Positions 44,900-60,608 of a stretch of DNA of 64,000 nt are shown here, in pieces. Position 1 is the stretch's first letter. The number at the start of each line of letters is the position of its first letter. A program made the translations under genes and the position numbers. The notes under the pieces were generated by a model, which was not told the origin of the DNA, ran no database searches, and worked only from the letters and a program-made list of their open reading frames with translations. The DNA is from Synechococcus sp. CCY 9618 (GTDB lineage Bacteria > Cyanobacteriota > Cyanobacteriia > PCC-6307 > Cyanobiaceae): assembly GCF_019038415.1 (NCBI RefSeq), contig NZ_JAFKRG010000031.1, forward strand, positions 1-64,000. Reading direction: 5' to 3'.

Positions 44900-45592
44900 T
44901 CAGCGACTGAGCACCCGCATGGCCTGGTTGCCATCGAGGCTGGGGGGGGCGCTCTCTGGCAGTGCATCGGTGCGAAGGGCCACGGCGACGGTGGCGGCCC
45001 AGGGGCGCGGGCCGGTGTCGGCGGGGAACACCAGCACCACCGTGCCGGCCGAGGGGGTGGTGGAAGGATCCTCCGCCAGGATCTCGAGGGCCACCCGGGT
45101 GCGGCGACACTGAAGAGCCCGTGCCTGCATCAGGGCCACGAACTCGTGGGTGTTCCAGCGTGCCTCGGTGCCCTGGCAGGGGAAGCGCTGGCTGAGGCGG
45201 GCGGCGCTGAGCTCCTCGATGGCGCCGCCCCGCTGCCCATCCCAGACCAGAAGCAGGTTGGCGTCACGGCAGAAGGCGTTGTGCTCCACCAGCTGGCGAT
45301 CCAGCGTGAGCCGCCTTTCCAGGCCGTGCTTCTCGGCGGGGATCGCAAGGCAGGTCCTGAGGGCCTGGGCCACCTCGCAACCTCGTCCTTCGCAGTAGCC
45401 CCGATGGGCCGTGAGGATGTCGCCGGCGGCGGCCACGATCTCGAGAGCGGGCAGGCTGCGGCTCAGTTTCTGCATCAGGGCGTTGAACTGAACGCCTCCA
45501 TCGCCGAAGGGGCCGCGGTCAGGATCGGTGGCGGCCAGCATCTGATCGATGGCGGAGCTCACCAGCTCCCGCCTCCAGGTCAGATACGTCAT
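44900..45592 (-). CDS. Hypothetical protein
   Basis: 230 residues; no domain recognised. The frame is protein-like, with a good ribosome site (AAGGAG, ~8 bases before the ATG). No membrane segment or signal peptide is apparent. It contains five cysteines in the middle (HRGYCEGRGCEVAQALRTCL ~68-88, and two later) and a helix-rich N-terminal half. The ~1.1 kb upstream is gene-poor, with an inverted repeat at 45634-45686 that could be an operator for this gene. Confidence 0.65.
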   Translation of the reverse strand: MTYLTWRRELVSSAIDQMLAATDPDRGPFGDGGVQFNALMQKLSRSLPALEIVAAAGDILTAHRGYCEGRGCEVAQALRTCLAIPAEKHGLERRLTLDRQLVEHNAFCRDANLLLVWDGQRGGAIEELSAARLSQRFPCQGTEARWNTHEFVALMQARALQCRRTRVALEILAEDPSTTPSAGTVVLVFPADTGPRPWAATVAVALRTDALPESAPPSLDGNQAMRVLSR

Positions 45593-45633
45593 GAGGGCTC
45601 ACTCCTTTGGCGATTTTTTTCAGTGTGTCTCTT

Positions 45634-45686
45634 GCCGTTGACGACGGCCACGAGCCGTTACATTGCCTGCTTCGCGTATCAACGGC
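45634..45686. repeat. Inverted repeat upstream of the 44900-45592 gene
   Basis: GCCGTTGA (45634-45641) and TCAACGGC (45679-45686) are perfect 8-bp arms 37 bases apart, in an AT-richer patch ~45-95 bases before that gene's ATG. It could be an operator or a transcribed hairpin; chance is also possible. Confidence 0.35.
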
Positions 45687-46063
45687 TACGAAATAAAGTG
45701 TTGAACCCGCGATCTTGGCTGCTGTGGCTCTCTTGTCGCAGATGCCGATCCGGCCTTCCACCGGCGTCTGCCCGGGCTCGACCGTTCCCAGCTCGAGGCG
45801 AGACTGTTCAATCTCGTCAGCTCCGGCAGGGGCGGGGCCCGGAGGGGACCGGGCCGGTGCGGACCGTGGCGCCCGCCTCCACCTGCTGATTCGGGGGGGA
45901 AGGAATCCAGGACGTCGAGGGGCCTGGCCCTGGCAACGCACCAAGGCCCCCGCCTGACATCCTCTCTATCGGGGATGTCGTTGGAGCTGCGGATGTACGG
46001 CTTGGTGGCGCTGACTCCGCCGACGCTCATCTGACCCATGCCATACCCGTTCGGGCCCATCAC

Positions 46064-46296
46064 CTATTCAAAGGGATCCAGACAGCGCTCCCTGAACCGG
46101 CGGTGCACCTCCATCGGATGGATCTCGCAAAGCAGCATCAGGTCGCTGAGCACCATCGACCGTTCGCTGTGGTGGTTGTCGGCCAGGCGGTTGACCCGCA
46201 GGATGTCCGCATCCAGGGGCGGCAGGCCGGCGCTGCCATCGTTCCAGCAGGGCGCCAGCCGGCGCCGATCGGGGCCATGCCGTGGAGGTCAGTCAT
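46064..46296 (-). pseudogene. Possible frameshifted small gene
   Basis: An ATG at 46296 starts MTDLHGMAP in one frame. The neighbouring frame, open from 46288 to a stop at 46064-46066, reads LPPLDADILRVNRLADNHH, ERSMVLSDLMLLCEIHP, then MEVHRRFRERCLDPFE, which is convincing protein sequence. It lacks any ATG, GTG or TTG at a suitable upstream position. Joining the two frames near 46270-46288 would give a ~75-residue protein. This fits a one-base indel (real or sequencing). Family unknown. Confidence 0.4.
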
Positions 46297-46717
46297 CAAC
46301 TCCCAGGCTCAGGGGGGCCTTCCATGCTGAGGGAAGCGTCAGCGACCTTTGCGGATGCTGAAGTCGGGATGCCCCCCCGCCCCCGGCCTCTGGCCACAGG
46401 CGGCTCTGCCCAGTCCCGATCGATTCCTCCGTTGGGCCTGCCCCACCAGGCCACCCAGCGGCTCACCGGTTTGCAACGGTGTCCCTTCAGGCTCCCCTGG
46501 CGGTGGCCACGTCCGCCCGATGTCAGCCATGCGCCCTCCTCCGCTGGGTTGGTGGCGACTCTCCCCCCTGATGTCACGTGCCTGCGAACCGGCAGGCAGG
46601 GATGGCCAGGAATCGCTGAAAACCACTGGAGCCACAGGGATGCCGCGTCAGAACTCCCCCCTGGGCAGGTTGACGAAAACTAGCCTTCATGCTCTTCTTG
46701 AATGAAGAGAGAGAACC

Positions 46718-48340
46718 TTGCTACCGAAAGTGCAGAATAAAGCAAATCATGAGCTTCTGAAATCACCCCTGCCGGATAATGAAAATGACAACTCCCAGCA
46801 GGAGACTATAGCAATCACACTTCCGCCTCGCGATCACGTGGAAACTGCAGAGCTCGGCTCAACTCAGGTGGGCACCAACAGATTCGTGCTGGTGTATCAC
46901 CGTTCCCCTTTTGCCGAAATCCTGGATGACCAGGGAAATCGGCAATGGGTCGACCACAAGAGCCCGAATGGAATCATTCCGACCCTGCGGAATCTTTTTC
47001 ACGAAGAACACTCCGGCACCTGGATTTCCTGGCTTGAGAATCTCACAGGCGAGCCTGCAGAGGATGAGCGCACAACGATTTCTTCGCCAAGTCCATTCAC
47101 CCTCAGGAGACTTCCTCTCACTAAGGATCAGATCTCAAGCTTCTATCATGTCACCTCGAAGGAGTCTTTCTGGCCGATCCTGCACAGCTTCCCCGGGCTG
47201 TTCAGCATCGACAACTCCGACTGGGCCACCTTTGAGGAGGTCAACCGATCGTTTGCGCGGGCGGCCTGTGAAGAAGCGGCCCCGGGGGCCATCATCTGGA
47301 TTCACGACTACAACCTCTGGCTCACTCCGGCCCTGATCCGTGAGCAAAGGCCTGACGTGAAGATCGCCTTCTTCCACCACACGCCATTTCCTTCCAATGA
47401 CGTGTTCAGCATTCTCCCCTGGCGGGACGACATTCTCGACAGTCTGCTGTGCTGTGACCTGGTTGGATTTCACGTTCCCCGCTACGCTAACAACTTCGCC
47501 CGCAACGCCATCAACCTGCGCGGAGTGGAGGGAGGCGAGGCGGTGCCGGTGGCCGACAAGTTCCGTCGCCTCGGCAGCGCCCTGGCTGAGCCCACCGTGG
47601 TTCCATGGCTGGATCACCAAGGCCGCCGCATCCACATCCAGGCCTCTCCGGTGGGGACCTCCCCCGAGCTGATCCGTCAGCTGATGGATTCCGAGGAGGT
47701 CCGGCAGATGTCCGGCCAGATTGCCGAGCAGCACGCCGGGCGCAAGCTGATCCTTTCTGCCTCCCGGGTCGACTACACGAAGGGCAACGAGGAGATGTTG
47801 CTCGCCTATGAACGTCTCCTGGAGCAGCACCCCCAATGGCATGGGGAGGTGGAGCTGTTTCTTGCCTGTGTGGCCGCTGCCAGCGGCATGCGCATCTACG
47901 AAGACATCCAGCGCTCGGTCGAGGAGATCGTGGGGCGCATCAACGGCCGCTTCGGTCGCATCGACTGGACGCCCGTGCGTCTCTCCACCCGTCGCACCCC
48001 CTATGACGAGATGGTGGCCTGGTTCAGCCAGGCGGATGTCTGCTGGATCACCCCCCTGCGGGACGGGCTCAACCTGGTGGCCAAGGAATATGTGGTGGCC
48101 CGCGAGGGCCAGACAGGCGTTCTGGTGCTTTCGGAATTCACCGGCACCTCGGTGGAACTGGAGGATGCCCTGCTCACCAACCCCTACTCCCACCACAGCA
48201 TGGACCTGGCCATCACCACGGCGCTGAACATGCCGGAGGAGGAACAGCGACGGCGGATGAACGCCATGGCCCAGGTGGTTGAGGAGTTCACGGTGCAGCA
48301 CTGGGCTGCGCAACAGCTGGGAACCCTGCGCTCGCTTTGA
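46718..48340 (+). CDS. ggpS: Glucosylglycerol-phosphate synthase
   Basis: 540 residues, GT20 family (trehalose-6-phosphate synthase relatives). Joins ADP-glucose and glycerol-3-phosphate to make GG-phosphate, the first step of the main compatible solute of moderately halotolerant cyanobacteria. Motifs: WIHDYNLWLTPALI (~residue 194), FFHHTPFPSND (~218), SASRVDYTKGNEE (~347) and LRDGLNLVAKEYVVA (~446). GgpS from Synechocystis is ~499 residues, so ~45 extra N-terminal residues come from the TTG start; a later start before TNRFVLVYHRSPF is possible. The first ~400 bases are noticeably AT-richer than the rest. The stop overlaps the ggtB start. Confidence 0.9.
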   Translation: MLPKVQNKANHELLKSPLPDNENDNSQQETIAITLPPRDHVETAELGSTQVGTNRFVLVYHRSPFAEILDDQGNRQWVDHKSPNGIIPTLRNLFHEEHSGTWISWLENLTGEPAEDERTTISSPSPFTLRRLPLTKDQISSFYHVTSKESFWPILHSFPGLFSIDNSDWATFEEVNRSFARAACEEAAPGAIIWIHDYNLWLTPALIREQRPDVKIAFFHHTPFPSNDVFSILPWRDDILDSLLCCDLVGFHVPRYANNFARNAINLRGVEGGEAVPVADKFRRLGSALAEPTVVPWLDHQGRRIHIQASPVGTSPELIRQLMDSEEVRQMSGQIAEQHAGRKLILSASRVDYTKGNEEMLLAYERLLEQHPQWHGEVELFLACVAAASGMRIYEDIQRSVEEIVGRINGRFGRIDWTPVRLSTRRTPYDEMVAWFSQADVCWITPLRDGLNLVAKEYVVAREGQTGVLVLSEFTGTSVELEDALLTNPYSHHSMDLAITTALNMPEEEQRRRMNAMAQVVEEFTVQHWAAQQLGTLRSL

Positions 48341-49617
48341 CCCTGGGCCGCCGGCGCTCCCTCTGGGCCCTCGCCCTCGGGCTGGCCCTGGCGGCTGCCC
48401 TGCTGCTGTGGCCTCTGGCCTGGGCGCGGCGGCCCGTCACGGTGCGGGTGCTGATGCCGGCCCCCTTCGCGGATGCCACCGCCGCGATGGTGGCCGACTT
48501 CAACCGCAGCCCCCGCGGGGTGCGCATCGAAGTGACCCGCGGGCCCTTCGAGACGGAGGCGGTGTCCGACCTGGCGATCAGCAGCCTCCTGCTGGGTGAC
48601 AGCCCGTACGACCTGCTGCTGATGGACGTCACCTGGACGGCGAAGTACGCCGCCGCCGGCTGGCTGCAACCCCTCGACCCATGGCTGGGTCCGGAGGCCC
48701 TGGCGCCTCTGGTGCCGGGGGCCCGTGCCGGCAACCGCATCGACGGTCAGCTGTGGCGCCTGCCCCTGCTGGCCGATGTGGGCCTGCTCTACTGGCGGAC
48801 GGATCTGATGGAGGCCCCGCCGCGCACCCCCGACGAACTGGTGACACGCTCCCGACAACTGCAGGGGCAGGGTCGGGTGCCCTGGGGGTACCTGTGGCAG
48901 GGCCGCCAGTACGAGGGGCTCAGCTGTGTGTTCCTGGAAGTGGTGCACGGCTTCGGCGGCGGCTGGAGCACCGATGAGGGGGAGGGCATGGGTCTGGCCC
49001 GCCCCGCGGCGGCGGCGGCGGCGGGCTGGCTGCGCCTGCTGGTGAGCGAGGGGATCACGCCGGAGGCGGTGGCCAACTACGCCGAGCCGCAGTCGTTGCA
49101 GAGCTTCCGCCGGGGGGAGGCCGCGTTCCTGCGCAGCTGGCCCTATGCCTGGCAGGAACTGCAGGGAGAGGGCAGCGCCGTGGCCGGCAAGGTGGGCATC
49201 ACCACGATGGTCGCCGAGCCCGGCCTCCCCCATGCCGCCACCCTGGGCAGCTGGGGCTTCTCCCTGCTGGCCGGCAGTGCCCACCCCGAGGAAGCAATCA
49301 CCGTGCTGCGGACGCTCACGGGAGCGGACAGCCAGCGGCAGCTGGTCCGGGACTGGGGGTACACCCCCACCCTGGCCGCTCTGTTCGAGGATCCGGATCT
49401 GGTGAAGCTGCGGCCCCAGCTTCCCCTGCTGCGGCAGGCGCTCAACGCCGCAGTGGTTCGCCCCCTCTCGCCGGGCTATGCCCAGCTCAGCGACATCCTG
49501 CAGCGGGAGCTGAGTGCCGTGATCACCGGCGGCGAGTCCGCCGGCCCCGCCATGGAGGAGGCCGCCCGGGCCAGCCGTCAGCTGCTGCAGGCCAGCGGCA
49601 GGGAGGCCGCGGCTTGA
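48337..49617 (+). CDS. ggtB: Glucosylglycerol ABC transporter, substrate-binding protein
   Basis: 426 residues. N-terminal hydrophobic signal (LWALALGLALAAALLLWPLA, residues 9-28) with no lipobox cysteine, so it is probably a secreted or membrane-anchored periplasmic protein. The remainder is a family 1 solute-binding (maltose-binding-like) fold: VRVLMPAPFADATAAMV, YDLLLMDVTWTAKYAAAGWL (~95), RQYEGLSCVFLEVVHGFGG, FRRGEAAFLRSWPYAW (~265) and GSWGFSLLAGS. Its TTG overlaps the ggpS stop by 4 bases. Context and GgpS coupling suggest GG as ligand, but sucrose/trehalose are recognised by the Ggt system in Synechocystis. Confidence 0.85.
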   Translation: MTLGRRRSLWALALGLALAAALLLWPLAWARRPVTVRVLMPAPFADATAAMVADFNRSPRGVRIEVTRGPFETEAVSDLAISSLLLGDSPYDLLLMDVTWTAKYAAAGWLQPLDPWLGPEALAPLVPGARAGNRIDGQLWRLPLLADVGLLYWRTDLMEAPPRTPDELVTRSRQLQGQGRVPWGYLWQGRQYEGLSCVFLEVVHGFGGGWSTDEGEGMGLARPAAAAAAGWLRLLVSEGITPEAVANYAEPQSLQSFRRGEAAFLRSWPYAWQELQGEGSAVAGKVGITTMVAEPGLPHAATLGSWGFSLLAGSAHPEEAITVLRTLTGADSQRQLVRDWGYTPTLAALFEDPDLVKLRPQLPLLRQALNAAVVRPLSPGYAQLSDILQRELSAVITGGESAGPAMEEAARASRQLLQASGREAAA

Positions 49618-50477
49618 GGTTGAGGGCCCTGCTGCTGATGGCCCCGGCTCTGCTACTGCTGCTGGCGGTGTTCGCCTGGCCGATGCTCGAGTACGCCTGG
49701 CTGAGTCTGCACGCCCAGTCGGTCTTCACAGGCCTTGAGCCGGTGCCGGTGGGTCTGGCCAACTGGCAGCGGCTGCTGGGCGATGGTCGCTTCTGGCAGG
49801 ACGCCGGCCAGACCCTGCGCTTCGCCGGGGTGTCGGTGGGGCTGGAGCTTGTGCTGGGCCTGGGCATCGCCCTGCTGCTCCACCAGAACTGGCGCGGCAG
49901 GGGCGTGGTGCGCAGCCTCAGCCTGCTTCCCTGGGCTTTGCCCAACACGGTGATGGCCCTGGGGTGGCGCTGGATCTTCGACGACCCGAACGGGCCGATC
50001 AATGCCCTGCTGGGGGGCCTGGGGCTGGCCACCCTTCCCTTCCTGGCCTCTCCCCAGCTGGCCTGGATCGCCACCGTGGTGGCGGATGTCTGGAAGACCA
50101 CCCCCTTTGTGGCGCTGCTGCTGCTGGCGGGGCTGCAGATGATTCCCGCCGACCTGTACGACGCCTTCGCCCTCGAGGGGGGCACTCCCTGGCAGGCGTT
50201 GCGGCGCATCACGCTGCCGCTGCTGCGGCCCTACATCTTCATCGTGCTGCTGTTCCGGCTCGCCCAGGCCCTCGGCGTGTTCGACCTGATCGCCGTGCTC
50301 ACCGGCGGCGGCCCGGCCAGCAGCACCGAGAGCCTGGCGGTGTATGCCTATCTCAATGCCATGCGCTTCCTCGACTTCGGGTATTCCGCCACGGTGATGC
50401 TGGGGATGTTTCTGCTGCTGCTGGCTGGATCGGCCCTGCTGCTGCTGCTGCCGCGCGGTCAGGAGGTGAGGTCATGA
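49614..50477 (+). CDS. ggtC: Glucosylglycerol ABC transporter, permease (MalF-like)
   Basis: 287 residues with six membrane helices. EAA loop: DAFALEGGTPWQALRRITLP (~residue 182), which contacts the ATPase. GVFDLIAVLTGGGPASSTE near the end is typical of sugar-permease MalF/UgpA relatives. TTG start overlaps the ggtB stop (TTGA). The plus-strand neighbour ggtD overlaps its end by 4 bases. Confidence 0.87.
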   Translation: MRLRALLLMAPALLLLLAVFAWPMLEYAWLSLHAQSVFTGLEPVPVGLANWQRLLGDGRFWQDAGQTLRFAGVSVGLELVLGLGIALLLHQNWRGRGVVRSLSLLPWALPNTVMALGWRWIFDDPNGPINALLGGLGLATLPFLASPQLAWIATVVADVWKTTPFVALLLLAGLQMIPADLYDAFALEGGTPWQALRRITLPLLRPYIFIVLLFRLAQALGVFDLIAVLTGGGPASSTESLAVYAYLNAMRFLDFGYSATVMLGMFLLLLAGSALLLLLPRGQEVRS

Positions 50478-51301
50478 AGCGCTTCGGCAGGGGCGGTGCC
50501 GCCCTGGTCGTGCTGTTGCTGCTGTGGAGCCTGGGGCCGATGCTCTGGCAGCTGTACACCTCCCTGCGCACGCCCGAAGCCCTCCTCGGGGATGGGGCCG
50601 GCCCGGGCGGTGGCTGGACTCTGGCCAACTATGTCCAGGTGCTCCACGGCGCCCCCCCCTTCTGGCGCTATCTGCTCAACAGCACGGTGGTCGGAGCGAT
50701 CAGCACCCTGCTCACGCTGCTGCTGGCGATTCCCTGCGCCTATGCCCTCAGCCGCCGAGGCGGCCTGCTGCGACTCGTGGTGAGCGGGGGCCTGCTGGCG
50801 GCCGCGGTGTTCCCCTATGTGCTGCTGTTCCTGGCCCTGCTTCAGGTGGCCCGACAGTTCGGCCTGGCCAACAACCTTCTGGCCCTCTGTCTGCCCTATG
50901 CGGGGCTGTCGCTGCCGCTGGCGGTGCTGCTCCTGCAGGCGGCCTTCGCTGAACTGCCGGTGGAGCTGGAGGAGAATGCCTTGCTGGAGGGCTTCACCCT
51001 GATGCAACGCCTGCGCTGGATCCTGTTGCCCCTGATGGGGCCGGCGGTGGTGAGCACGGGGTTGCTGGTGTTCCTGTTCAGCTGGAACGAATTCCCCATT
51101 GCCCTCACCTGGCTGAGCCGCAGCGAGCTGCTCACCCTGGCACCGGCGATGGCGCGGATCGCCGGCTCGTCGGTGTTCACCGTTCCTTACGGCGCCTTCG
51201 CCGCGGCCACCGTTCTGGGCAGCCTGCCCCTGCTGGCCCTGCTGCTGCTCTTCCAGCGACAGATCGTGGCCGGGCTCACCCAGGGGGCGATCAAGGGATG
51301 A
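50474..51301 (+). CDS. ggtD: Glucosylglycerol ABC transporter, permease (MalG-like)
   Basis: 275 residues, six membrane helices. The coupling EAA loop reads EENALLEGFTLMQRLRWILL (~residue 173), followed by LLVFLFSWNEFPIALTWL, a MalG hallmark. Starts with ATG overlapping the ggtC stop (ATGA), and its stop overlaps ggtA's ATG. Confidence 0.88.
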   Translation: MKRFGRGGAALVVLLLLWSLGPMLWQLYTSLRTPEALLGDGAGPGGGWTLANYVQVLHGAPPFWRYLLNSTVVGAISTLLTLLLAIPCAYALSRRGGLLRLVVSGGLLAAAVFPYVLLFLALLQVARQFGLANNLLALCLPYAGLSLPLAVLLLQAAFAELPVELEENALLEGFTLMQRLRWILLPLMGPAVVSTGLLVFLFSWNEFPIALTWLSRSELLTLAPAMARIAGSSVFTVPYGAFAAATVLGSLPLLALLLLFQRQIVAGLTQGAIKG

Positions 51302-52305
51302 CGGATCCGGGCATGACCACCACCACGTCCGCGCCCAGCCTGCGCCTGGACAACCTCACCCGCCGCATCGGCGGCCGCGCGATCATCGATGGGGTCGACC
51401 TGGCGGTGGCCCCGGGCGAGTGCCTTGCCCTGCTGGGGCCCAGCGGCTGCGGCAAGAGCTCGGTGCTGCGGCTCATCGCCGGCCTCGATACCCCGGATGC
51501 CGGCAGGATTCTGCTGGAGGGTGACGACATCACCCGGAAGCCTCCGCAGCGCCGTCAGGTGGCGCTGGTGTTCCAGAGCTACGCGCTGTATCCGCACCTC
51601 AATGTGTCCCGGAATCTCTCGCTGGGGATGGAGATCCGCGGGGTGCCGGCCCAGGAGCGGGAACGGGAGGTGACCTCCGTGCTGGCCATGCTGCAACTCA
51701 CGGAGCTGGCCCAGCGGCTGCCGGCGGAACTCTCCGGCGGCCAGCGCCAGCGGGTGGCCCTGGCCCGGGCCCTGCTGCGCCATCCGCGGGTGTTCCTGCT
51801 GGATGAACCGATGAGCAATCTCGATGCCCAGCTGCGCGAGGAACTGCGGCCCCAGCTGCGCTCCATCCTCTGCGCCGGCAGCGCTCCGGTGATCTACGTG
51901 ACCCATGACCAGCAGGAGGCCATGGGCATCGCCGATCGCATCGCGGTGCTGTCCAACGGCCGGGTGCAGCAGTGCGGCACCCCGAAGGATCTCTACCTGA
52001 CCCCGGCCAACATGTTCGTGGCCTCCTTCATCGGACGGCCCCAGATCAATCTTCTGCCGCAGGAGGACGGAACGGTGCTGGGGATCCGCCCCGAGCACCT
52101 GGTGGCGACGGACGACAGCGGGATCCCTGTGAGGGTCCTGAACCGTGAATGGCACGGGGCCAGCCAGCAGCTGCTGGTCTCCAGCCCCCAGGGGGACCTC
52201 CGCTGGACCTGTGACGGAGCCCAGCCCATCGGTGAGGGGCTGCGGCTGGGCTGGGACCGGCGCCACGAGCACCATTTCCTCAAGACCACGGGCGCACGTT
52301 GCTGA
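51298..52305 (+). CDS. ggtA: Glucosylglycerol ABC transporter, ATP-binding subunit
   Basis: 335 residues, a MalK/UgpC-type ATPase. Walker A LLGPSGCGKSSVLRL (~residue 45), Q-loop VFQSYALYPHL (~90), signature LSGGQRQRVALARALL (~143), Walker B VFLLDEPMSNLDA (~163), H-loop VTHDQQEA (~199). After ~240 residues a short TOBE region of ~90 residues (LGIRPEHLVATDD) follows, less than in MalK. Overlaps ggtD upstream and the TreS-like gene downstream (TGATG). Confidence 0.88.
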   Translation: MTDPGMTTTTSAPSLRLDNLTRRIGGRAIIDGVDLAVAPGECLALLGPSGCGKSSVLRLIAGLDTPDAGRILLEGDDITRKPPQRRQVALVFQSYALYPHLNVSRNLSLGMEIRGVPAQEREREVTSVLAMLQLTELAQRLPAELSGGQRQRVALARALLRHPRVFLLDEPMSNLDAQLREELRPQLRSILCAGSAPVIYVTHDQQEAMGIADRIAVLSNGRVQQCGTPKDLYLTPANMFVASFIGRPQINLLPQEDGTVLGIRPEHLVATDDSGIPVRVLNREWHGASQQLLVSSPQGDLRWTCDGAQPIGEGLRLGWDRRHEHHFLKTTGARC

Positions 52306-53966
52306 TGGCCATCCGGACGGAGCACTGGTGGACAGGCTGCGTGATCTACCAGCTCATGCCGCGGAGCTTCGCTGATTCCGACGGGGACGGCATCGGTGAT
52401 CTCGCCGGCATCACGAGCAAGCTTCCCTACCTGCGCTGGCTGGGCGTGGATGCGATCTGGCTGACGCCGATCTACCCCTCCCCCCTCAAGGACGGCGGAT
52501 ACGACATCACCGACTTCACGGCCATTCATCCTGAACTCGGCGACCTGGCGGACCTGGCGGAGCTGCTGGAACAGGCGCACCACCACGACATCCGGGTGAT
52601 TCTCGATCTGGTGCTGAATCACACCAGCCTTCTGCATCCATGGTTTCAGCGGGCCCGCTGGGCGCCGAGCGGCAGCGTCGAGCGCGACTTCTATGTCTGG
52701 CGTGACGACGATCGGAGCTATGCCGATGCTCCCGTGCTGTTCCGCCACTTCGAGGACTCGAACTGGGAGTGGGATCCCGTGGCCGGCCAGTACTACCTGC
52801 ACCGCTTTCTGCGCCACCAGCCCGATCTGAATTACGACAACCCGGCGGTTCAGGAAGAGATGCTGACCGTGGTCGATTTCTGGCTGGACCGGGGGGTCGA
52901 TGGCTTTCGTCTCGATGCGGTGCCCTTTCTGTTCGAGCGGGACGGGACCCGCTGCGAGGGACTGCCGGAAACCCACGCGTTCCTCAGGCGGCTGCGGGCG
53001 CGGGTGGATGCCGGCGGTCGCGACGTGCTTCTGATCGCCGAGGCGATTCAGCCGGTGCGGGAATCGGCGCCCTACCTGGCCGACGATGAACTTCACGCCG
53101 CCTTCGACTTCGAGATCACCGCCCAGCTGTTCGCGGCTCTGGCCCATGGCCAGTGCGGGGAGCTGCGCCACTGCCTGATGCACGCCCAGGCCCAGGTGCC
53201 CGGGTGCCGCTGGGCCCTGCCGCTGCGGAACCACGATGAGCTCTGGCTCGGGGATGGCCACCTGGTGGATGAGAGCGTCGTTCAGACGGTGGTGAACGGT
53301 TTCCCCAATGCCAGGGGTCACTGGCTGAACTGGGGCATCAACCGGCGCCTGGCACCCCTGCTCAACGGCGATCCGCGGCCGAACACCCTGCTGCATGGCC
53401 TGCTTTACAGCCTGCCGGGGCTGCCCTGCCTGTACTACGGGGATGAACTGGGCATGGGCGACTGGCCGGGGCTGCGCGACCGCGACCCCAACCGCACCCC
53501 GATGGCCTGGACGAGCGAGCGCAACGGGGGGTTCTCCACCGCCCCGGATCCGCTGCTGGTGCTGCCGCCCATCACGGCCCCCGGCTACGACTACCGGGTG
53601 GTGAACGTGGAGGTGCAGCAGCAGCTCTCCGGTTCCTTGCTCAACTGGCACCACCGCATGCTCACCAGCCGGCGCCTGCTGCCCGCCCTGCGCCAGGGTG
53701 GCTTCGAACTGCTCACCAGCCGCCACCCCAGCGTGCTCTGCTACGCCCGCGTCACCGATGGCATGACCGTGGTGGTGGCGGCGAACCTGGGCGCCACCGG
53801 CGCTTCCACCAGCCTCGATCTCGGCCGCTGGAGCGGCAGCCGGGTGCGCGAGGTGCTGGCGGGCTGCGAATTCCCCCCCGCCAGTGACGACTGGTTCGTG
53901 TACCTGAACGCCTATGGATTCTTCTGGTGGCTGGTGGGGGAGCAGGGCAGCGAAGCCAGCTCCTGA
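52305..53966 (+). CDS. treS: Trehalose synthase-like GH13 enzyme
   Basis: 553 residues. Full GH13 (beta/alpha)8 barrel: DLVLNHTSLLHPWF (~residue 100), VDGFRLDAVPFLFERDG (~198, nucleophile Asp), VLLIAEAIQP (~240, acid/base Glu) and LPLRNHDELWL (~305, third Asp). DSNWEWDPVAGQYYLHRF, HQPDLNYDNPAVQEEML and RCEGLPETHAFLRRLR closely match TreS (GH13_16), which interconverts maltose and trehalose. Nothing in the sequence shows whether it acts on GG or maltose here. It is coupled to ggtA and overlaps glpD tail to tail by 55 bases. In this setting it could also be a GG-cleaving hydrolase. Confidence 0.78.
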   Translation: MAIRTEHWWTGCVIYQLMPRSFADSDGDGIGDLAGITSKLPYLRWLGVDAIWLTPIYPSPLKDGGYDITDFTAIHPELGDLADLAELLEQAHHHDIRVILDLVLNHTSLLHPWFQRARWAPSGSVERDFYVWRDDDRSYADAPVLFRHFEDSNWEWDPVAGQYYLHRFLRHQPDLNYDNPAVQEEMLTVVDFWLDRGVDGFRLDAVPFLFERDGTRCEGLPETHAFLRRLRARVDAGGRDVLLIAEAIQPVRESAPYLADDELHAAFDFEITAQLFAALAHGQCGELRHCLMHAQAQVPGCRWALPLRNHDELWLGDGHLVDESVVQTVVNGFPNARGHWLNWGINRRLAPLLNGDPRPNTLLHGLLYSLPGLPCLYYGDELGMGDWPGLRDRDPNRTPMAWTSERNGGFSTAPDPLLVLPPITAPGYDYRVVNVEVQQQLSGSLLNWHHRMLTSRRLLPALRQGGFELLTSRHPSVLCYARVTDGMTVVVAANLGATGASTSLDLGRWSGSRVREVLAGCEFPPASDDWFVYLNAYGFFWWLVGEQGSEASS

Positions 53967-55483
53967 TCCACGAGATCCTGCACCCGGGGTCGCAGCCGCT
54001 CGCTCTCGGCGCTGTCCACGAAGGCCAGCCGGCAGCGGCGGGCCAGCACGTCGTCGGCACTGCGGGCCCACTCGTGGCGGACCGCGTGGCGCACCTCTGC
54101 GGCGGTGAGGGGAATCACCTCGCTGAGGGGATGCAGCTCGGCGGGGCTGTCGGCACAGGCCAGCACCGCCTCCGCCGCCAGCCCGTGGCTGGCCAGCAGG
54201 TGCTCCACCAGCTCCGGAGAGGGGGCCGGCAGGAGCCCCGGCAGGTGCCCGCGCAGCCGGTCCAGTTCCGCCAGGGTGGCCTCGGGTGTGGCGGCGGCTC
54301 CCAGCAGAACAGTGGCGGCCCCCTGCTCCGTGGGAGCGGGCAGAGGCCGGTCCAGCAAACGGACGGCGGCCTCCAGTCCATCGAGGGCCATGGGCCGGCA
54401 GGTGGTCCACTTGCCGCCCATCACGCTCACGAGCCCGCAGGGAAGCGTTTCAACCACATGCTCCCGGACGACGGTGGCGGTCCCTTCGCTGCCATCGCTC
54501 CGCAGCAGCGGCCGCCCTCCGGCCCAGCGACTGGTCACCACCGGCTCGCCGAGGTCGGGGAACCAGCGACGCACGTAGTCGAGCAGGTAGGCCTCCTCCT
54601 CAGCGCTGGGCTGGGTGGCCGCCTCGCCCGGGCAGGCGATGTCGGTGGTCCCCACCAGGGTGCGGCCATGGAAGGGCAGCATGAACAGAACCCGGCCATC
54701 GTCGGTGGCGGGAATCAGCAGGCCGATCCCACCCGCGCAGAGATCGGCCTCCAGCACCAGATGCATGCCCCGGCTCACCTGCACCCTGGGGGCCAGGTCG
54801 GGCTGGGCCATGCGACGGATGGCATCGGCGCCGATGCCTGTGGCATTGACCACCACCCGGGCCTCCAGCTCCCAGGAGCTGCCGTCCTCGACGTTCCGCA
54901 GCACCGCCCCGGTGAGCCGATCCGAGTGGCGCTGCAGACCCACCACCTCCGTCCGGGTGAAGACCTGCGCCCCCAGGCCGGCTGCGGTTCGGGCAATCAG
55001 CAGATTGAGGCGGGCGTCGTCGAACTGCCCGTCGCTGTAGGCCACGCCCCCATGGCCCGCCGCCAGGGTGGGGAGCGCCTGCCGCACCGCCGGTTGCCCC
55101 AGCCAGCGACTCGCTCCGATGCCCTTCTGGCCGGCCAGCAGGTCGTAAAGCCCCAGGCCGATGCCGTAGTAGATGGTCTGGAGGGGATGGGCGGTCGGCA
55201 GCAGCAGCTCCAGCCGACGGGCCAGGAAGGGCGCCTGGGAGAGCCAGTGGCCCCGCTCCGCCAGGGCCTCACGCACCAGCTGCAGCTGGCGCCAGTCGAG
55301 GCGCTTGAAGGCGAGCTCCAGGTAGCGCACACCGCCGTGCAGCAGCTTGGTGCTGCGGCTGCTGGTGCCGATGGCGATGTCGCCGGCCTCCACCAGGGCC
55401 ACCCGCAGCCCGCGCCTGGCCGCCTCCAGGGCCAGGGTGGCTCCGGTGGCCCCGGCGCCGATCACCAGAACATCAACGCTCAT
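53912..55483 (-). CDS. glpD: Aerobic glycerol-3-phosphate dehydrogenase
   Basis: 523 residues; FAD enzyme oxidising glycerol-3-phosphate to dihydroxyacetone phosphate and passing electrons to quinone. The FAD fold starts VDVLVIGAGATGATLALEAA (residues 3-22). SSRSTKLLHGGVRYLEL (~50) and SVMGGKWTTCRPMALDGLEA (~360) are conserved. The ATG at 55483 overlaps the glpK stop by 4 bases (ATGA), so glpK-glpD is coupled. The C-terminal 18 codons lie opposite the 3' end of the TreS-like gene. Confidence 0.93.
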   Translation of the reverse strand: MSVDVLVIGAGATGATLALEAARRGLRVALVEAGDIAIGTSSRSTKLLHGGVRYLELAFKRLDWRQLQLVREALAERGHWLSQAPFLARRLELLLPTAHPLQTIYYGIGLGLYDLLAGQKGIGASRWLGQPAVRQALPTLAAGHGGVAYSDGQFDDARLNLLIARTAAGLGAQVFTRTEVVGLQRHSDRLTGAVLRNVEDGSSWELEARVVVNATGIGADAIRRMAQPDLAPRVQVSRGMHLVLEADLCAGGIGLLIPATDDGRVLFMLPFHGRTLVGTTDIACPGEAATQPSAEEEAYLLDYVRRWFPDLGEPVVTSRWAGGRPLLRSDGSEGTATVVREHVVETLPCGLVSVMGGKWTTCRPMALDGLEAAVRLLDRPLPAPTEQGAATVLLGAAATPEATLAELDRLRGHLPGLLPAPSPELVEHLLASHGLAAEAVLACADSPAELHPLSEVIPLTAAEVRHAVRHEWARSADDVLARRCRLAFVDSAESERLRPRVQDLVDQELASLPCSPTSHQKNP

Positions 55484-56994
55484 GTCGCCTCTCCATGCCA
55501 GTGCAGACTGCGCTTCACTGCGGAGGTCCAGCGGCGGCGCCACCGCTGCCTTTCGCCGGGATCGAGCGACGGCTCGAACCGCCGGGGTTCCCCGCTCGGA
55601 TGGTCATTCTGCCAGGCCTCGAGGCTTTCCACGACTCCGGCCTGCACACCGGCCAGCAGCGCCACCCCCCGGCTGGTGCTCTCCAGATCGGCGCGGCGGC
55701 GCACGGTCACTCCGCTGGCATCGGCCTGCGCCTGCAACAGCAGGTCGGCCGCGGCGGCTCCGCCATCGGCGGCCAGCTCGCCCAGGGGTGTCCCCAGGGC
55801 CTCCTCGGCCAGCTCCACCAGGGTGGCCACCGCCAGGGCGATGCCCTCCAGGGCCGCGCGGGCGATCTGGGCCGGTCCGGTGTCACGGGTGATGCCGATC
55901 AGCAGGCCGCGGGCGCCGGGATCCCAGTGGGGTGTGCCCAAGCCTGTGAACGCCGGCACGAGCATCAGGCCGCCGCTGTCGTCGCAGCTCCTGGCCAGGC
56001 CGTCGACCTGATCGGAGCGCTCGATCAGCCCGAGACCATCGCGCAGCCACTGGATCACGCTGCCGGCGTTGAAGAGGCTGCCCTCGAGGCAGTAGGTGGG
56101 GCGGCCGTCGGCATCACACCAGCCCACGGTGCTCAACAACCCAGCATCGGAGCGGCGGATCACGGATCCGGTGTTGATCACCAGGAACGCCCCGGTGCCG
56201 TAGGTGCACTTGGCTTCGCCGGGCAGCAGGCAACCCTGGCCCAGGGTGGCCGCCTGCTGATCGCCCAGCATGGCGGTGATCGGGACGCCGGCGAAGGGCA
56301 GGCCGGCGGCGATCGAGCCGAAGGCCGCGCGGCTGGGCAGCAGCTCGGGAAGGGCCTCCAGCGGCACCCCCAGGGCGGCGGCCAGCTCCGGATCCCACTG
56401 GAGTCGCTCCAGGTCCATCAGCAGTGTGCGGCTGGCGTTGCTGAACTCGGTGGCATGGCGTGCGCCGGCGGTGAGCCGCTGCAGCAGCCAGCTGTCCACC
56501 GTGCCGAAACAGAGGCTGCCGTCCGCGGCGGCCGCCGCCGCCGCGGGAACCGCCTGCAGCAGCCAGACGATCTTGCTGGCGCTGAAATACGGATCCGCCA
56601 GCAGACCTGTGCGGGCCCGGATCTCCGACTCCAGACCGGCGCGCTTCCAGTCGGCGCAGATGGCAGCGGTGCGACCGTCCTGCCAGACGATCGCCGGCCC
56701 GAGCGGCTCGGCGCCGCCGCGGCGCCAGAGCACGGTGGTTTCGCGCTGGTTGGCGATGCCGCAGGCCGCCACCGCCCGCCGCTGGTCGGCGCTGAGCGCC
56801 TGCTCCAGCTGGGCCAGGGCCTGCAGCTGGCTCTGCCAGATCGCCTCCGGCTGCTGTTCCACCCAGCCGTCGGCGGGGTAATGGCAGGTGAGCGGAGCGG
56901 TGCAGCTGTGCAGGCAGCGGCCCCCGGCATCGAAGAGGGCGGCCCGGGAGCTGGTGGTGCCCTGATCGATGCTCAGGAGGAGGGGCAAATCCAT
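55480..56994 (-). CDS. glpK: Glycerol kinase
   Basis: 504 residues; ATP + glycerol to glycerol-3-phosphate. N-terminal LLLSIDQGTTSSRAALFDAG (phosphate 1 loop), GIANQRETTVLWRR (~85), GVPITAMLGDQQAATLGQGC (~240) and AFTGLGTPHWDPGARG (~355) are FGGY kinase motifs. Although open to 57069, the ATG at 56994 starts the conserved part. First gene of the glpK-glpD pair, divergent by 56 bases from the second GH13 gene, so the two share a promoter region. Confidence 0.95.
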   Translation of the reverse strand: MDLPLLLSIDQGTTSSRAALFDAGGRCLHSCTAPLTCHYPADGWVEQQPEAIWQSQLQALAQLEQALSADQRRAVAACGIANQRETTVLWRRGGAEPLGPAIVWQDGRTAAICADWKRAGLESEIRARTGLLADPYFSASKIVWLLQAVPAAAAAAADGSLCFGTVDSWLLQRLTAGARHATEFSNASRTLLMDLERLQWDPELAAALGVPLEALPELLPSRAAFGSIAAGLPFAGVPITAMLGDQQAATLGQGCLLPGEAKCTYGTGAFLVINTGSVIRRSDAGLLSTVGWCDADGRPTYCLEGSLFNAGSVIQWLRDGLGLIERSDQVDGLARSCDDSGGLMLVPAFTGLGTPHWDPGARGLLIGITRDTGPAQIARAALEGIALAVATLVELAEEALGTPLGELAADGGAAAADLLLQAQADASGVTVRRRADLESTSRGVALLAGVQAGVVESLEAWQNDHPSGEPRRFEPSLDPGERQRWRRRWTSAVKRSLHWHGEAT

Positions 56995-57050
56995 CGCCGG
57001 CGAACTTTTGTCCGTGCTAGCGCTGACGAAGGCACCTAGAAAGGCTGGGG

Positions 57051-58514
57051 ATGGGTTTTGCAACGACATCAGCGCAAGCGGGCCTCGGGGCGGACCCGGC
57101 GCCTCCCGCCTGGGTGGCTGAGGCCGTGGTGTATCAGATCTTTCCGGATCGCTTCCGCCGCAGCGGCCGTGTCGAGGCCCAGCAGGGACTGACGCTGATG
57201 GCCTGGGGCAGCAATCCGCAGGACCAGGGCTTCCAGGGTGGGGATCTGTATGGGGTGATCGAGGCCCTCGACCATCTCCAGGACCTGGGGATCACCTGTC
57301 TTTCACTGAATCCGGTGTTCGCTTCAGCGGCCAATCACCGCTACCACGCCTACGACTATCTGCAGGTGGATCCGCTGCTGGGAGGCCGTGCCGCCCTGGA
57401 GGCCCTGATCGAGGCCGTGCACGCGCGCGGCATGCGGCTGGTGCTCGACGGCGTGTTCAACCATTGCGGCCGTGGCTTCTGGGCCTTTCACCACCTGCTC
57501 GAGAACGGCGAGCGCTCGCCCTACCGCGACTGGTTCCACGTGGAGCGGTGGCCGCTGCGGGCCTACCCCGGCCCCGGGGAGAGCTGCGGCTACACCTGCT
57601 GGTGGAACGACCCGGCGCTGCCGAAGTTTCGCCACGATCACCCACCGGTGCGGCGCCATCTGCTGGAGGTGGCGCGCCACTGGATCGCCGCCGGCATCGA
57701 TGGCTGGCGGCTGGACGTGCCCGATGAGGTGCCGGCCGACTTCTGGCAGGAGTTCCGACGGGCGGTGCGCAGCGCAAACCCCGAGGCCTGGATCGTCGGA
57801 GAGATCTGGGGCGACGGCCGGCCGTGGCTGGCCGGCGACAGGTTCGACGGGGTGATGAACTACCCGATGACCTGGACCATCCTGGGCTACTTCGGCGCCG
57901 CCTCGGTGCCACGGAATCTGAAACTTGCCCCCTTGCCCGAGCCCCCTTACCAGCCCCTCGACCGCGCCGGCTTTCAGCAACGGGTGGTGCAGCTGCTGGG
58001 CCGTTATCCCGACGCGGTGAACCGCGGCCAGCTCAACCTGCTCGACAGCCACGACGCACCCAGGGCGCTGCATGTGCTCGACGGCGACCGGGAGGCCCTG
58101 CGCCTCAGCCTGCTGTTTCTGTTCCTGCTGCCCGGGGCTCCCTGCATTTACTACGGCACGGAGACGGGTCTGGCCGGCGGACCGGAGCCGGGCTGTCGTG
58201 AGGCGTTCCCCTGGGATCGGCCCCGTGACGCTCTCTGCGGCTGGCTGCAGGAGCTTGCGGCCCTGCGGCGCCGCCTTCCGGCCCTGCGCTCGGCCCCGAT
58301 CACCTTCCTGGACAGCCCCCATGAGGATCTGCTGCTGCTGAGCCGCGGCGGCGGCGCCGAGCGGGTGTGGGTGGCCATCAATCGGGGTGATGGGCTTCTG
58401 CCGCTGCCAGCGGCCTTCCGGGGCGAAAGGCTCTGGACGAGCCTGGCCCCGGAGTCCGCCGCAGACGGGCTGCCGGGACGGGCGGCGGCCCTGCTCGCCG
58501 CCCCCGAAGCCTGA
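57051..58514 (+). CDS. GH13 alpha-amylase family hydrolase, cyclomaltodextrinase/neopullulanase-like
   Basis: 487 residues. VYQIFPDRFRRSGRVEA (~25), RLVLDGVFNHCGRGFWAF (~130), AGIDGWRLDVPDEVPADFW (~215, nucleophile Asp), AWIVGEIWGDGRPW (~245, acid/base Glu) and LNLLDSHDAPRAL (~328, third Asp) form a complete active site. The layout resembles neopullulanase-type enzymes that split maltodextrins or cyclodextrins. No N-terminal carbohydrate module is present, and length is ordinary. Its end overlaps the phosphatase start (TGATG). In the GG locus it could be the GG hydrolase; substrate unproven. Confidence 0.83.
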   Translation: MGFATTSAQAGLGADPAPPAWVAEAVVYQIFPDRFRRSGRVEAQQGLTLMAWGSNPQDQGFQGGDLYGVIEALDHLQDLGITCLSLNPVFASAANHRYHAYDYLQVDPLLGGRAALEALIEAVHARGMRLVLDGVFNHCGRGFWAFHHLLENGERSPYRDWFHVERWPLRAYPGPGESCGYTCWWNDPALPKFRHDHPPVRRHLLEVARHWIAAGIDGWRLDVPDEVPADFWQEFRRAVRSANPEAWIVGEIWGDGRPWLAGDRFDGVMNYPMTWTILGYFGAASVPRNLKLAPLPEPPYQPLDRAGFQQRVVQLLGRYPDAVNRGQLNLLDSHDAPRALHVLDGDREALRLSLLFLFLLPGAPCIYYGTETGLAGGPEPGCREAFPWDRPRDALCGWLQELAALRRRLPALRSAPITFLDSPHEDLLLLSRGGGAERVWVAINRGDGLLPLPAAFRGERLWTSLAPESAADGLPGRAAALLAAPEA

Positions 58515-59740
58515 TGGACCGCCCGATGCGCAGCGTGCCGTTCACGGCCGATGGGCTGCTGGAGGATCTCAGCGGCAGCGAGGACCTCCTGATCGTGCAG
58601 GACCTCGATGGTGTGTGCATGGAGCTGGTGCACGACCCGCGCCGGCGGCGGCTGGATCCGGCCTATGTGCTGGCCGCCCGGCGGCTGGAGGGGCACTTCG
58701 CGGTTCTCACCAACGGCGAGCACGAGGGAAGCCGTGGTGTGAACAGGCTGGTGGAGAAGGCCCTGGCGGGTCGGGCGGATCCCGCCCGCGAGGGGCTCTA
58801 CCTGCCCGGCCTGGCGGCCGGCGGCGTGCAGCTGCAGGATCGCTACGGGACGGTGAGCCACCCCGGCGTCAGCCCGGCCGAGCTGGCGTTCCTGGCCGCC
58901 GTGCCACCGAGGCTGGCGGGCCAGCTGCGGCTCCATGCCCCGGTGCTTCTGCCCACCCTCACGGCCGAGGAGCGGCAGCCGCTGCTGGAGGCGGCGGTGC
59001 TCGACAACCCTCTCTCCCCCAGCCTCAACCTCAACCCGCTGCTGCAGGCGATGGCGGGCGATGTCGGCCGCCAGCAGGATCTGCAGGTCCTGGCCCTGGG
59101 GCTGATGCAGGACCTGCTGGGCGAGGCGGCCGCGGCTGGACTGCAGGAGTCGTTCTTCCTGCATCTGGCGCCCAACCTCGGCCGTCTTGACGGCCGGGAA
59201 CGGTTGAAACCCGCCGAAGCGGGCGCCACGGGCACCACCGATGTTCAGCTGATGCTGCGCGGCTCCCTCAAGGAGGTGGGCCTGCTGGTGCTGATCAACC
59301 AGGCGATCGCCCGCCGCAGCGGCAGCCCCCCCCTGGGGGAGAGTTTCAATGTGCGCACCGCTCCGCACGACCATCCGAGCCTGCTGGCACTGGCCCGCAG
59401 CGCCATCGATCCGGCCCTGATGCCCAGGCTGGTCGGGGTGGGCGACACGATCACCTCCGTGCCGGAGCCCGGGGGGGGCGGCTGGATGAGGGGCGGCAGC
59501 GACCGGGGCTTCCTCACCCTGCTGCAGGAGCTGGGGGAGGTGTTCGGCACCGCCAACCGGGTGGTGCTGGTGGACAGCAGCGGCGGCGAGGTGGACCGGC
59601 CGTCCCTGGCCGATGGCACGTTCGAGGGCCTCTCCGATCCGGAGGATCCCCTCCGCATCGACGCCACCCTGCCCGGCGGCCCACAGGCGTACATCCGCTT
59701 CTTCCGGGACCTGGCGGAAGGCCATGGCCGCGATGGGTAG
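58514..59740 (+). CDS. stpA: Glucosylglycerol 3-phosphatase (StpA)
   Basis: 408 residues; HAD-fold phosphatase that removes phosphate from GG-phosphate, the second step of GG synthesis (also called ggpP). The nucleophile motif is LLIVQDLDGVCMELVHDPR (~residue 25-43). LTNGEHEGSRGVNRLVEKAL (~67), LNLNPLLQAMAGDVGRQQDL and GVGDTITSVPEPGGGGW (~316) match the family. Translationally coupled to the GH13 gene upstream. It lies ~10 kb from ggpS with glpK-glpD between them on the other strand. Confidence 0.9.
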   Translation: MDRPMRSVPFTADGLLEDLSGSEDLLIVQDLDGVCMELVHDPRRRRLDPAYVLAARRLEGHFAVLTNGEHEGSRGVNRLVEKALAGRADPAREGLYLPGLAAGGVQLQDRYGTVSHPGVSPAELAFLAAVPPRLAGQLRLHAPVLLPTLTAEERQPLLEAAVLDNPLSPSLNLNPLLQAMAGDVGRQQDLQVLALGLMQDLLGEAAAAGLQESFFLHLAPNLGRLDGRERLKPAEAGATGTTDVQLMLRGSLKEVGLLVLINQAIARRSGSPPLGESFNVRTAPHDHPSLLALARSAIDPALMPRLVGVGDTITSVPEPGGGGWMRGGSDRGFLTLLQELGEVFGTANRVVLVDSSGGEVDRPSLADGTFEGLSDPEDPLRIDATLPGGPQAYIRFFRDLAEGHGRDG

Positions 59741-60608
59741 GGCCCCATCGGAGGCCATCAAGTCCATGTCCCATGCCACGGAGGCTGGGCACGCCGCTTC
59801 ACGATCATGGCCAGGTACGAATCCGCGCCGGGAAGGGAAAGCGCAGGGCCGAGCACCGTGCACGTGCCCCAGGCGCCCACCATCCTGCGGGTTGTTCGCC
59901 ACCGGATGGCCGTCGACCACCTGGGGTCGGTGATTGAGCGCGTCACCCCCACCGACTTCTCCACCGATGGGATCGGGATCGTCCGCTCGGGCTGCTGGCT
60001 GCTGCAGAACCCGCTGTTCTCCGGGCTGGCCGGGTTGAAGGCCCACCCGCCGCCGAAGAAGATCGCGATCGCGGTGGGGGGCAGCTTGGACGAAGAGGCC
60101 TTCGACCCCAGCGGTGGCTGCCTGGCGTCGGAGGAAGCCTGCCCGTCAGCGCCCGTGCGAGAGAAAGGTGTTGAAGGATCTCCCACCCAGCTGGCTCCGG
60201 TACCCCAGGGTGTTCTCGTCGGAGAGACTCACCGCGGCGCCGGGCCGATCGGCAACCTTGAGGCACTGCTGGAACTGCGGGGGGCTGCAGCAGTGCACAT
60301 TGAGCTGGTTGCAGCCCGCCGTGGGAACCAGACTGGCCTGGAACGGCTGGATCGCTGGCCAGCCCATTGGACAGGCTGGGTTGGCTGCTGCTGCCCGAAA
60401 CCTGTGGCCTGGAGGTGTGGCACGCCAGCGGCGCACCGCAACGACTGGGGCTGCAGCTGGATCTGGTGGAGCTCCGGGACGACTGAGGCCTGAGAAATCT
60501 CCGTGCCCATGCAACGGCACCGGCGTGACACCCATGGCGACAGGCTCGCCAGGATGATGACCTCAGCGTCAGGGCCATGCCCAGGCAGATCAACATCCCG
60601 GGAGACCA
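59741..60608. other. Decayed 0.9-kb region between stpA and selO
   Basis: No intact gene. Fragments that look coded occur on both strands, none with a whole family pattern except the Uma2-like piece at 60352-60486. One plus-strand frame (59807-60493) reads naturally for its first 90 codons (VTPTDFSTDGIGIVRSGCW), then loses quality. On the minus strand 60146-60330 ends ENTLGYRSQLGGRSFNTF with a stop. High GC makes such readings uncertain. Confidence 0.4.
60352..60486 (+). pseudogene. C-terminal remnant of an Uma2-family nuclease-like protein
   Basis: This frame reads LGWLLLPETCGLEVWHA, then GAPQRLGLQLDLVELRDD and a stop. That matches the C-terminal end of Uma2 (PD-(D/E)XK-like) proteins, which are very common in cyanobacteria: a strand LGWLI-P-, a WRxG- or VEVW-type strand, and a closing LDLxEI helix. 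No catalytic core or N-terminus is present in frame, so only about 45 codons remain. Confidence 0.4.

Follow-up and report, generated by a model that had tools for sequence, protein, structure and literature searches.

The 1125 bases at positions 45593-46717 of the window (the whole 64,000-nucleotide stretch of Synechococcus sp. CCY 9618 DNA analysed here), which separate a conserved left-hand gene (44900-45592, minus strand) from the glucosylglycerol-phosphate synthase gene ggpS, are mostly gene wreckage: real debris, of an ordinary kind. They hold a dead fragment of an Fe-S-free prokaryotic (6-4) photolyase gene, Phr2/PromaPL-like, on the minus strand (45938-46264), and a putative scrap of a YbjN-family gene on the plus strand (45762-45825). 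As the earlier note had stated, no intact gene was found within the gap, by ORF and sequence analysis, and no part of it matched an RNA family in Rfam. The photolyase fragment is the sole trace that we found of both photolyase types in one genome, among 42 genomes of the genus.

Debris between the left-hand gene and ggpS

(6-4) photolyases are light-driven enzymes that mend UV damage in DNA. The minus-strand peptides of the gap that had been singled out as protein-like all belong to one continuous frame of 109 codons, running through an in-frame TAG at 46064-46066. Intact relatives of these peptides, which had been proposed as a check, were identified as full-length photolyases: the frame aligned without gaps to codons 337-446 of a 504-aa protein (157 bits, 78 of 110 residues identical, 71%), and no counterpart of the codons before 337 or after 446 was found in the window when it was aligned to this protein. 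In the reference (L038, from genome G081, which belongs to another genus), the domains PF04244 (deoxyribodipyrimidine photo-lyase-related protein) and PF03441 were identified; among solved structures, it matches bacterial (6-4) photolyases, for example PhrB (4dja).

Searched as DNA, the gap matched 24 of 60 genomes, including its own and genome G014 (the latter at 45762-45825 only); in the 22 others, the relic was matched at 76-83% identity over about 290-330 bases. A 49-aa query from the relic found matches in 33 of 99 related genomes, its own included, and the surrounding frame in the 32 others extended over 281-736 codons from stop to stop. The outcome named beforehand as speaking against debris, a stretch similar to no protein and present as the same spacer in all relatives, was not seen.

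We assign the relic to the Fe-S-free type. PMC9178010 describes a subgroup M that lacks the Fe-S cluster and includes PromaPL. PMC9426592 divides Phr2 of marine picocyanobacteria into two subclades, one with four Fe-S cysteines, and reports that in strain RS9916 the phr2 gene lies downstream of uvrC. The CxxC...C motif was absent from all 27 intact relatives (26 of the genus and G081) and the relic, as far as its sequence goes, has the same short loop as these at the site of the cysteines in Fe-S types. It thus resembles Phr2/PromaPL in this loop and across its 109 codons, which belong to the C-terminal FAD-domain part and are about 71% identical at the protein level, but differs in being truncated on both sides, in its TAG, in its lack of constraint and in lying away from the usual locus. 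The Fe-S type (PhrB-like, solved structure 8ijy) belongs to the same superfamily, but matched the relic at only 33% identity over 88 codons, scoring 52 bits where the Fe-S-free type scored 157.

The relic shows several signs of decay. The frame is interrupted by the TAG, and the rest of the gene is missing on both sides; where a working photolyase has a complete ORF of about 500 codons, only 109 codons with one stop are left, and this is therefore a relic. Relative to intact copies, it carries both a disabling change and a loss of coding constraint, as expected of a pseudogene. Substitutions were counted at sites conserved in no fewer than 90% of 26 intact copies (25 from the genus plus G081; G009, whose motif differed, was left out). 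The relic departs from the conserved base at 11 of 96 first positions, 15 of 100 second positions and 4 of 56 third positions, whereas the intact copies, each compared with the rest, sum to 32, 23 and 65 differences, respectively (Fisher P 6e-5, relatedness ignored). The relic therefore lacks a third-position bias, and with it any sign of protein constraint. Its dN/dS was 0.21-0.60 against nine relatives, whereas five pairs of intact copies gave 0.13-0.18; the value for the relic remains below 1 because it includes the period when the gene was intact. Most likely, the relic does nothing now.

The YbjN scrap was identified through genome G014, which carries, directly beyond the left-hand gene, an intact trypsin-like protease with zinc ribbons and an intact YbjN-family gene (PF10722). 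Positions 45762-45825 are identical at 49 of 64 bases to the last part of this gene, and the corresponding protein match reached 30.4 bits, with a shuffle maximum of 23.1 (299 of 300 shuffles gave a match); the family assignment of these approximately 22 codons is taken from the match to the intact G014 gene. The scrap is thus a predicted C-terminal remnant of a gene still present at this junction in G014, which is likely the sister genome (psaAB tree support 88/68, not strong). The photolyase relic was not found in G014 by either the gap DNA search or the photolyase search; its contig ends 7 kb into the region, and the comparison covers the left side only.

Elsewhere in the gap, 45599-45719 (minus strand), upstream of the left-hand gene, is conserved in some relatives (ten genomes match it over 65-117 bases at 70-76% identity), and 46268-46717, upstream of ggpS, is a stretch without convincing similarity: a comparison with 3460 ORFs from the compared loci gave nothing convincing (best E 2.8). 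The claim that several short frames are protein-like accordingly stands for the photolyase frame and the plus-strand YbjN scrap, and found no support for any further frame. A cysT-like candidate at 46455-46507 was rejected, with 22.3 bits against its own shuffle maximum of 32.0. Short DNA matches to the gap in G006, G002 and two places of G018 were taken as chance, since the reading frames do not correspond.

Two photolyase types in one genus

The genome that carries the relic also holds an intact 513-aa photolyase of the Fe-S type, next to uvrC (identified by PF08459), and its cysteines align with those of the solved structure 8ijy. Across 42 genomes of the genus, its own included, we identified 27 with the Fe-S-free type, 12 with the Fe-S type, three with neither (G005, G019 and G036, two of them less than 90% complete) and none with both intact, an exclusion with Fisher P 4e-8 (relatedness ignored). 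An uninterrupted, full-length Fe-S-free gene is present in 25 of the 42, and in two more (G012 and G032) a contig end cuts it. All 12 Fe-S copies retain the four Fe-S cysteines. The exclusion was noted at G000:C34:178890-180347 (L052) and across the 42 genomes of the genus.

On a psaAB tree of 40 genomes (G016 and G017, with no psaAB match, were left out), the Fe-S-free label requires at least 7 changes. At the uvrC locus, viewed in ten genomes, the flanks lie 30-81 bases apart with no photolyase between them in six Fe-S-free genomes, and the Fe-S gene is in place in G014, G016 and G020; the Fe-S copy of G030, a more distant one, lies on a contig other than that of its uvrC locus. Among copies with enough flank, linked DNA accompanies the Fe-S-free gene on its upstream side in 23 of 26 and on its downstream side in 24 of 26. 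Both loci therefore look old, and each line would have lost one or the other.

It is conceivable, and we offer this only tentatively, that the two types form an either/or pair that has switched several times, with the relic as a frozen intermediate that would record a time when a single genome had both genes, and that loss was driven by a trade-off (iron use, salinity or light) or an incompatibility, and not by mere redundancy. Both photolyase types are already known, as is the distribution of ggpS with salinity. On the relic or the exclusion between the two types, our searches of the open-access literature (subscription journals lie outside them) turned up nothing.

Two other sequences were noted in the photolyase searches. 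G034 carries, in addition to a full copy, a 29-codon piece of a photolyase C-terminus at a contig end (G034:C55:4354-4440, L163; 62% identity), perhaps another relic or an assembly edge. Contig CALPNT020000119.1 (L222) contains a photolyase of picocyanobacterial kind, and its label, which calls it a Bifidobacterium breve MAG, looks wrong.

The glucosylglycerol island and its flanks

Glucosylglycerol serves in salt protection. Positions 46718-59740 are a predicted glucosylglycerol synthesis cluster, with both ggpS (46718-48340, plus strand; TIGR02398, 741.9 bits, cut-off 569) and the glucosylglycerol 3-phosphatase gene ggpP (58514-59740, plus strand; TIGR02399, 504.3 bits, cut-off 365.5) scoring above curated cut-offs. 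The TTG start of ggpS at 46718 is doubtful, as the alignment to most of its closest relatives begins only at about residue 35-53 of the frame. Between the two genes, we identified an ABC transporter that is ggtBCDA-like by position (solute-binding protein, a permease, a putative second permease from about 50474, and ATPase; 48337-52305, plus strand; PF01547, PF00528 and PF00005 in the parts other than the second permease); a GH13 (alpha-amylase family) enzyme (52299-53966, plus strand; PF00128, with the TreS N-terminal model below its cut-off); a glycerol-3-phosphate dehydrogenase-like gene (53912-55543, minus strand; PF01266 and PF16901); a glycerol kinase gene (55480-57069, minus strand; FGGY domains, NF000756 with 534.9 bits against 498); and a second GH13 enzyme (57051-58514, plus strand; PF00128).

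The left-hand gene encodes 230 aa with no Pfam or NCBIfam match, and forms a conserved flank, with 74-82% identity in 16 other genomes of the genus. Many of those 16 genomes also hold a second, more distant copy (34-38%). The window is collinear with G018 and G023 up to 45592, and again from 59954 (59831 in a finer search against G018). Between these flanks, G018 and G023 hold 9-10 kb of other genes, and the window holds about 14 kb of debris and cluster; the region from about 45.8 to 59.8 kb thus stands where G018 and G023 have other genes. At its right edge, 59831-60136 (plus strand) is debris of a frame that has 441 codons in G018: the two ends now adjoin each other and about 265 codons between them are gone, which fits the replacement of a resident segment. 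The suggestion that genes had been inserted or lost at this junction is borne out by the broken photolyase, the YbjN scrap and the 13-kb cluster between collinear flanks.

At E values up to 1e-60, ggpS was found in one of 42 genomes of the genus, the remaining 41 having been searched without finding it; in a sample of 400 genomes from the family, 126 had it. The simpler explanation is that this lineage gained the cluster. Marine and brackish picocyanobacteria have glucosylglycerol clusters with the same genes in the same order, as in G108 and G179, among 14 regions of other genera, but here the cluster sits in a genus whose other 41 searched genomes lack ggpS. In the four genomes of the genus g65, among them WH 5701 and BSA11S, the genes for the transporter are located elsewhere, whereas they are inside the cluster here, in G108 and in G179. 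The nearest relative of the whole island is G179 (79-82% DNA identity), not BSA11S.

Origin of the relic and its meaning

In seven genomes with both on one contig, the Fe-S-free gene and the left-hand gene lie 39-65 kb apart. Simple decay in place lacks support, because the relic lies away from the site of the gene in relatives. An empty photolyase site was not found in its own genome, where the neighbours of the G018 gene are scattered over several contigs, and no piece of a photolyase was found beside those neighbours. In photolyase trees (G032, at a contig end, was left out), the relic fell on a long branch outside its own clade, nearest to BSA11S (support 79/83.5; 85/80 with 327 columns, a tree that leaves out one of 30 pattern loci, Aljojuca 7A6, as too short). 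Transfer would fit this position. A tree with the relic forced into its own clade was not rejected (p-AU 0.102; 0.367 in a second test).

It is accordingly possible, if doubtful, that the fragment was never the lineage's own gene, and came as a passenger of a segment acquired horizontally from a brackish picocyanobacterium. The relic directly adjoins the ggpS cluster, away from the usual place of the photolyase gene, and its nearest intact copy, at 83% identity, is that of BSA11S, from the Black Sea according to its record. However, a photolyase travelling with ggpS was found in none of the 14 regions of other genera (10-20 kb each), BSA11S has its photolyase and ggpS on different contigs, the island overall is nearest to G179, and descent within the relic's own clade is compatible with the tree tests.

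Two further readings take the frames of the gap as something other than wreckage. It is highly improbable that the fragment is a small functional gene, either the 30-aa frame at 46064-46156, which does begin with ATG inside the relic, or a longer one with another start: the relic lacks third-position bias, it corresponds to the truncated middle of a larger protein, and the gap has no Rfam match. Nor is there any appreciable chance that the peptides are fortuitous open frames in G+C-rich spacer, even though many overlapping and meaningless frames do occur in the gap, as the photolyase match refutes this: out of 300 dinucleotide-shuffled versions of the gap, none scored above 26.6 bits against the photolyase, compared with 157 for the relic.

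We consider it very probable that the gap holds the wreckage of a dead Fe-S-free photolyase fragment and a YbjN scrap, beside a replaced segment with the glucosylglycerol cluster, and that neutral drift followed once the photolyase was dispensable. What would have made the Fe-S-free enzyme so is the presence of another (6-4) photolyase in this genome, the Fe-S enzyme next to uvrC. The Fe-S-free gene may then have broken and lost both ends, before drifting neutrally. Since relatives keep the intact gene elsewhere, the fragment was presumably placed here by a rearrangement or replacement that accompanied the cluster's arrival, and it is plausible that this arrival and the debris are causally linked.

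As a pseudogene, the relic is ordinary, and its modest value is historical. It records that genes were replaced beside a salinity-adaptation cluster, in a genus otherwise without ggpS. As the one trace found of two photolyase types that are otherwise mutually exclusive in this genus, it also makes the question of why a genome has the Fe-S or the Fe-S-free form, and not the two together, a testable one.
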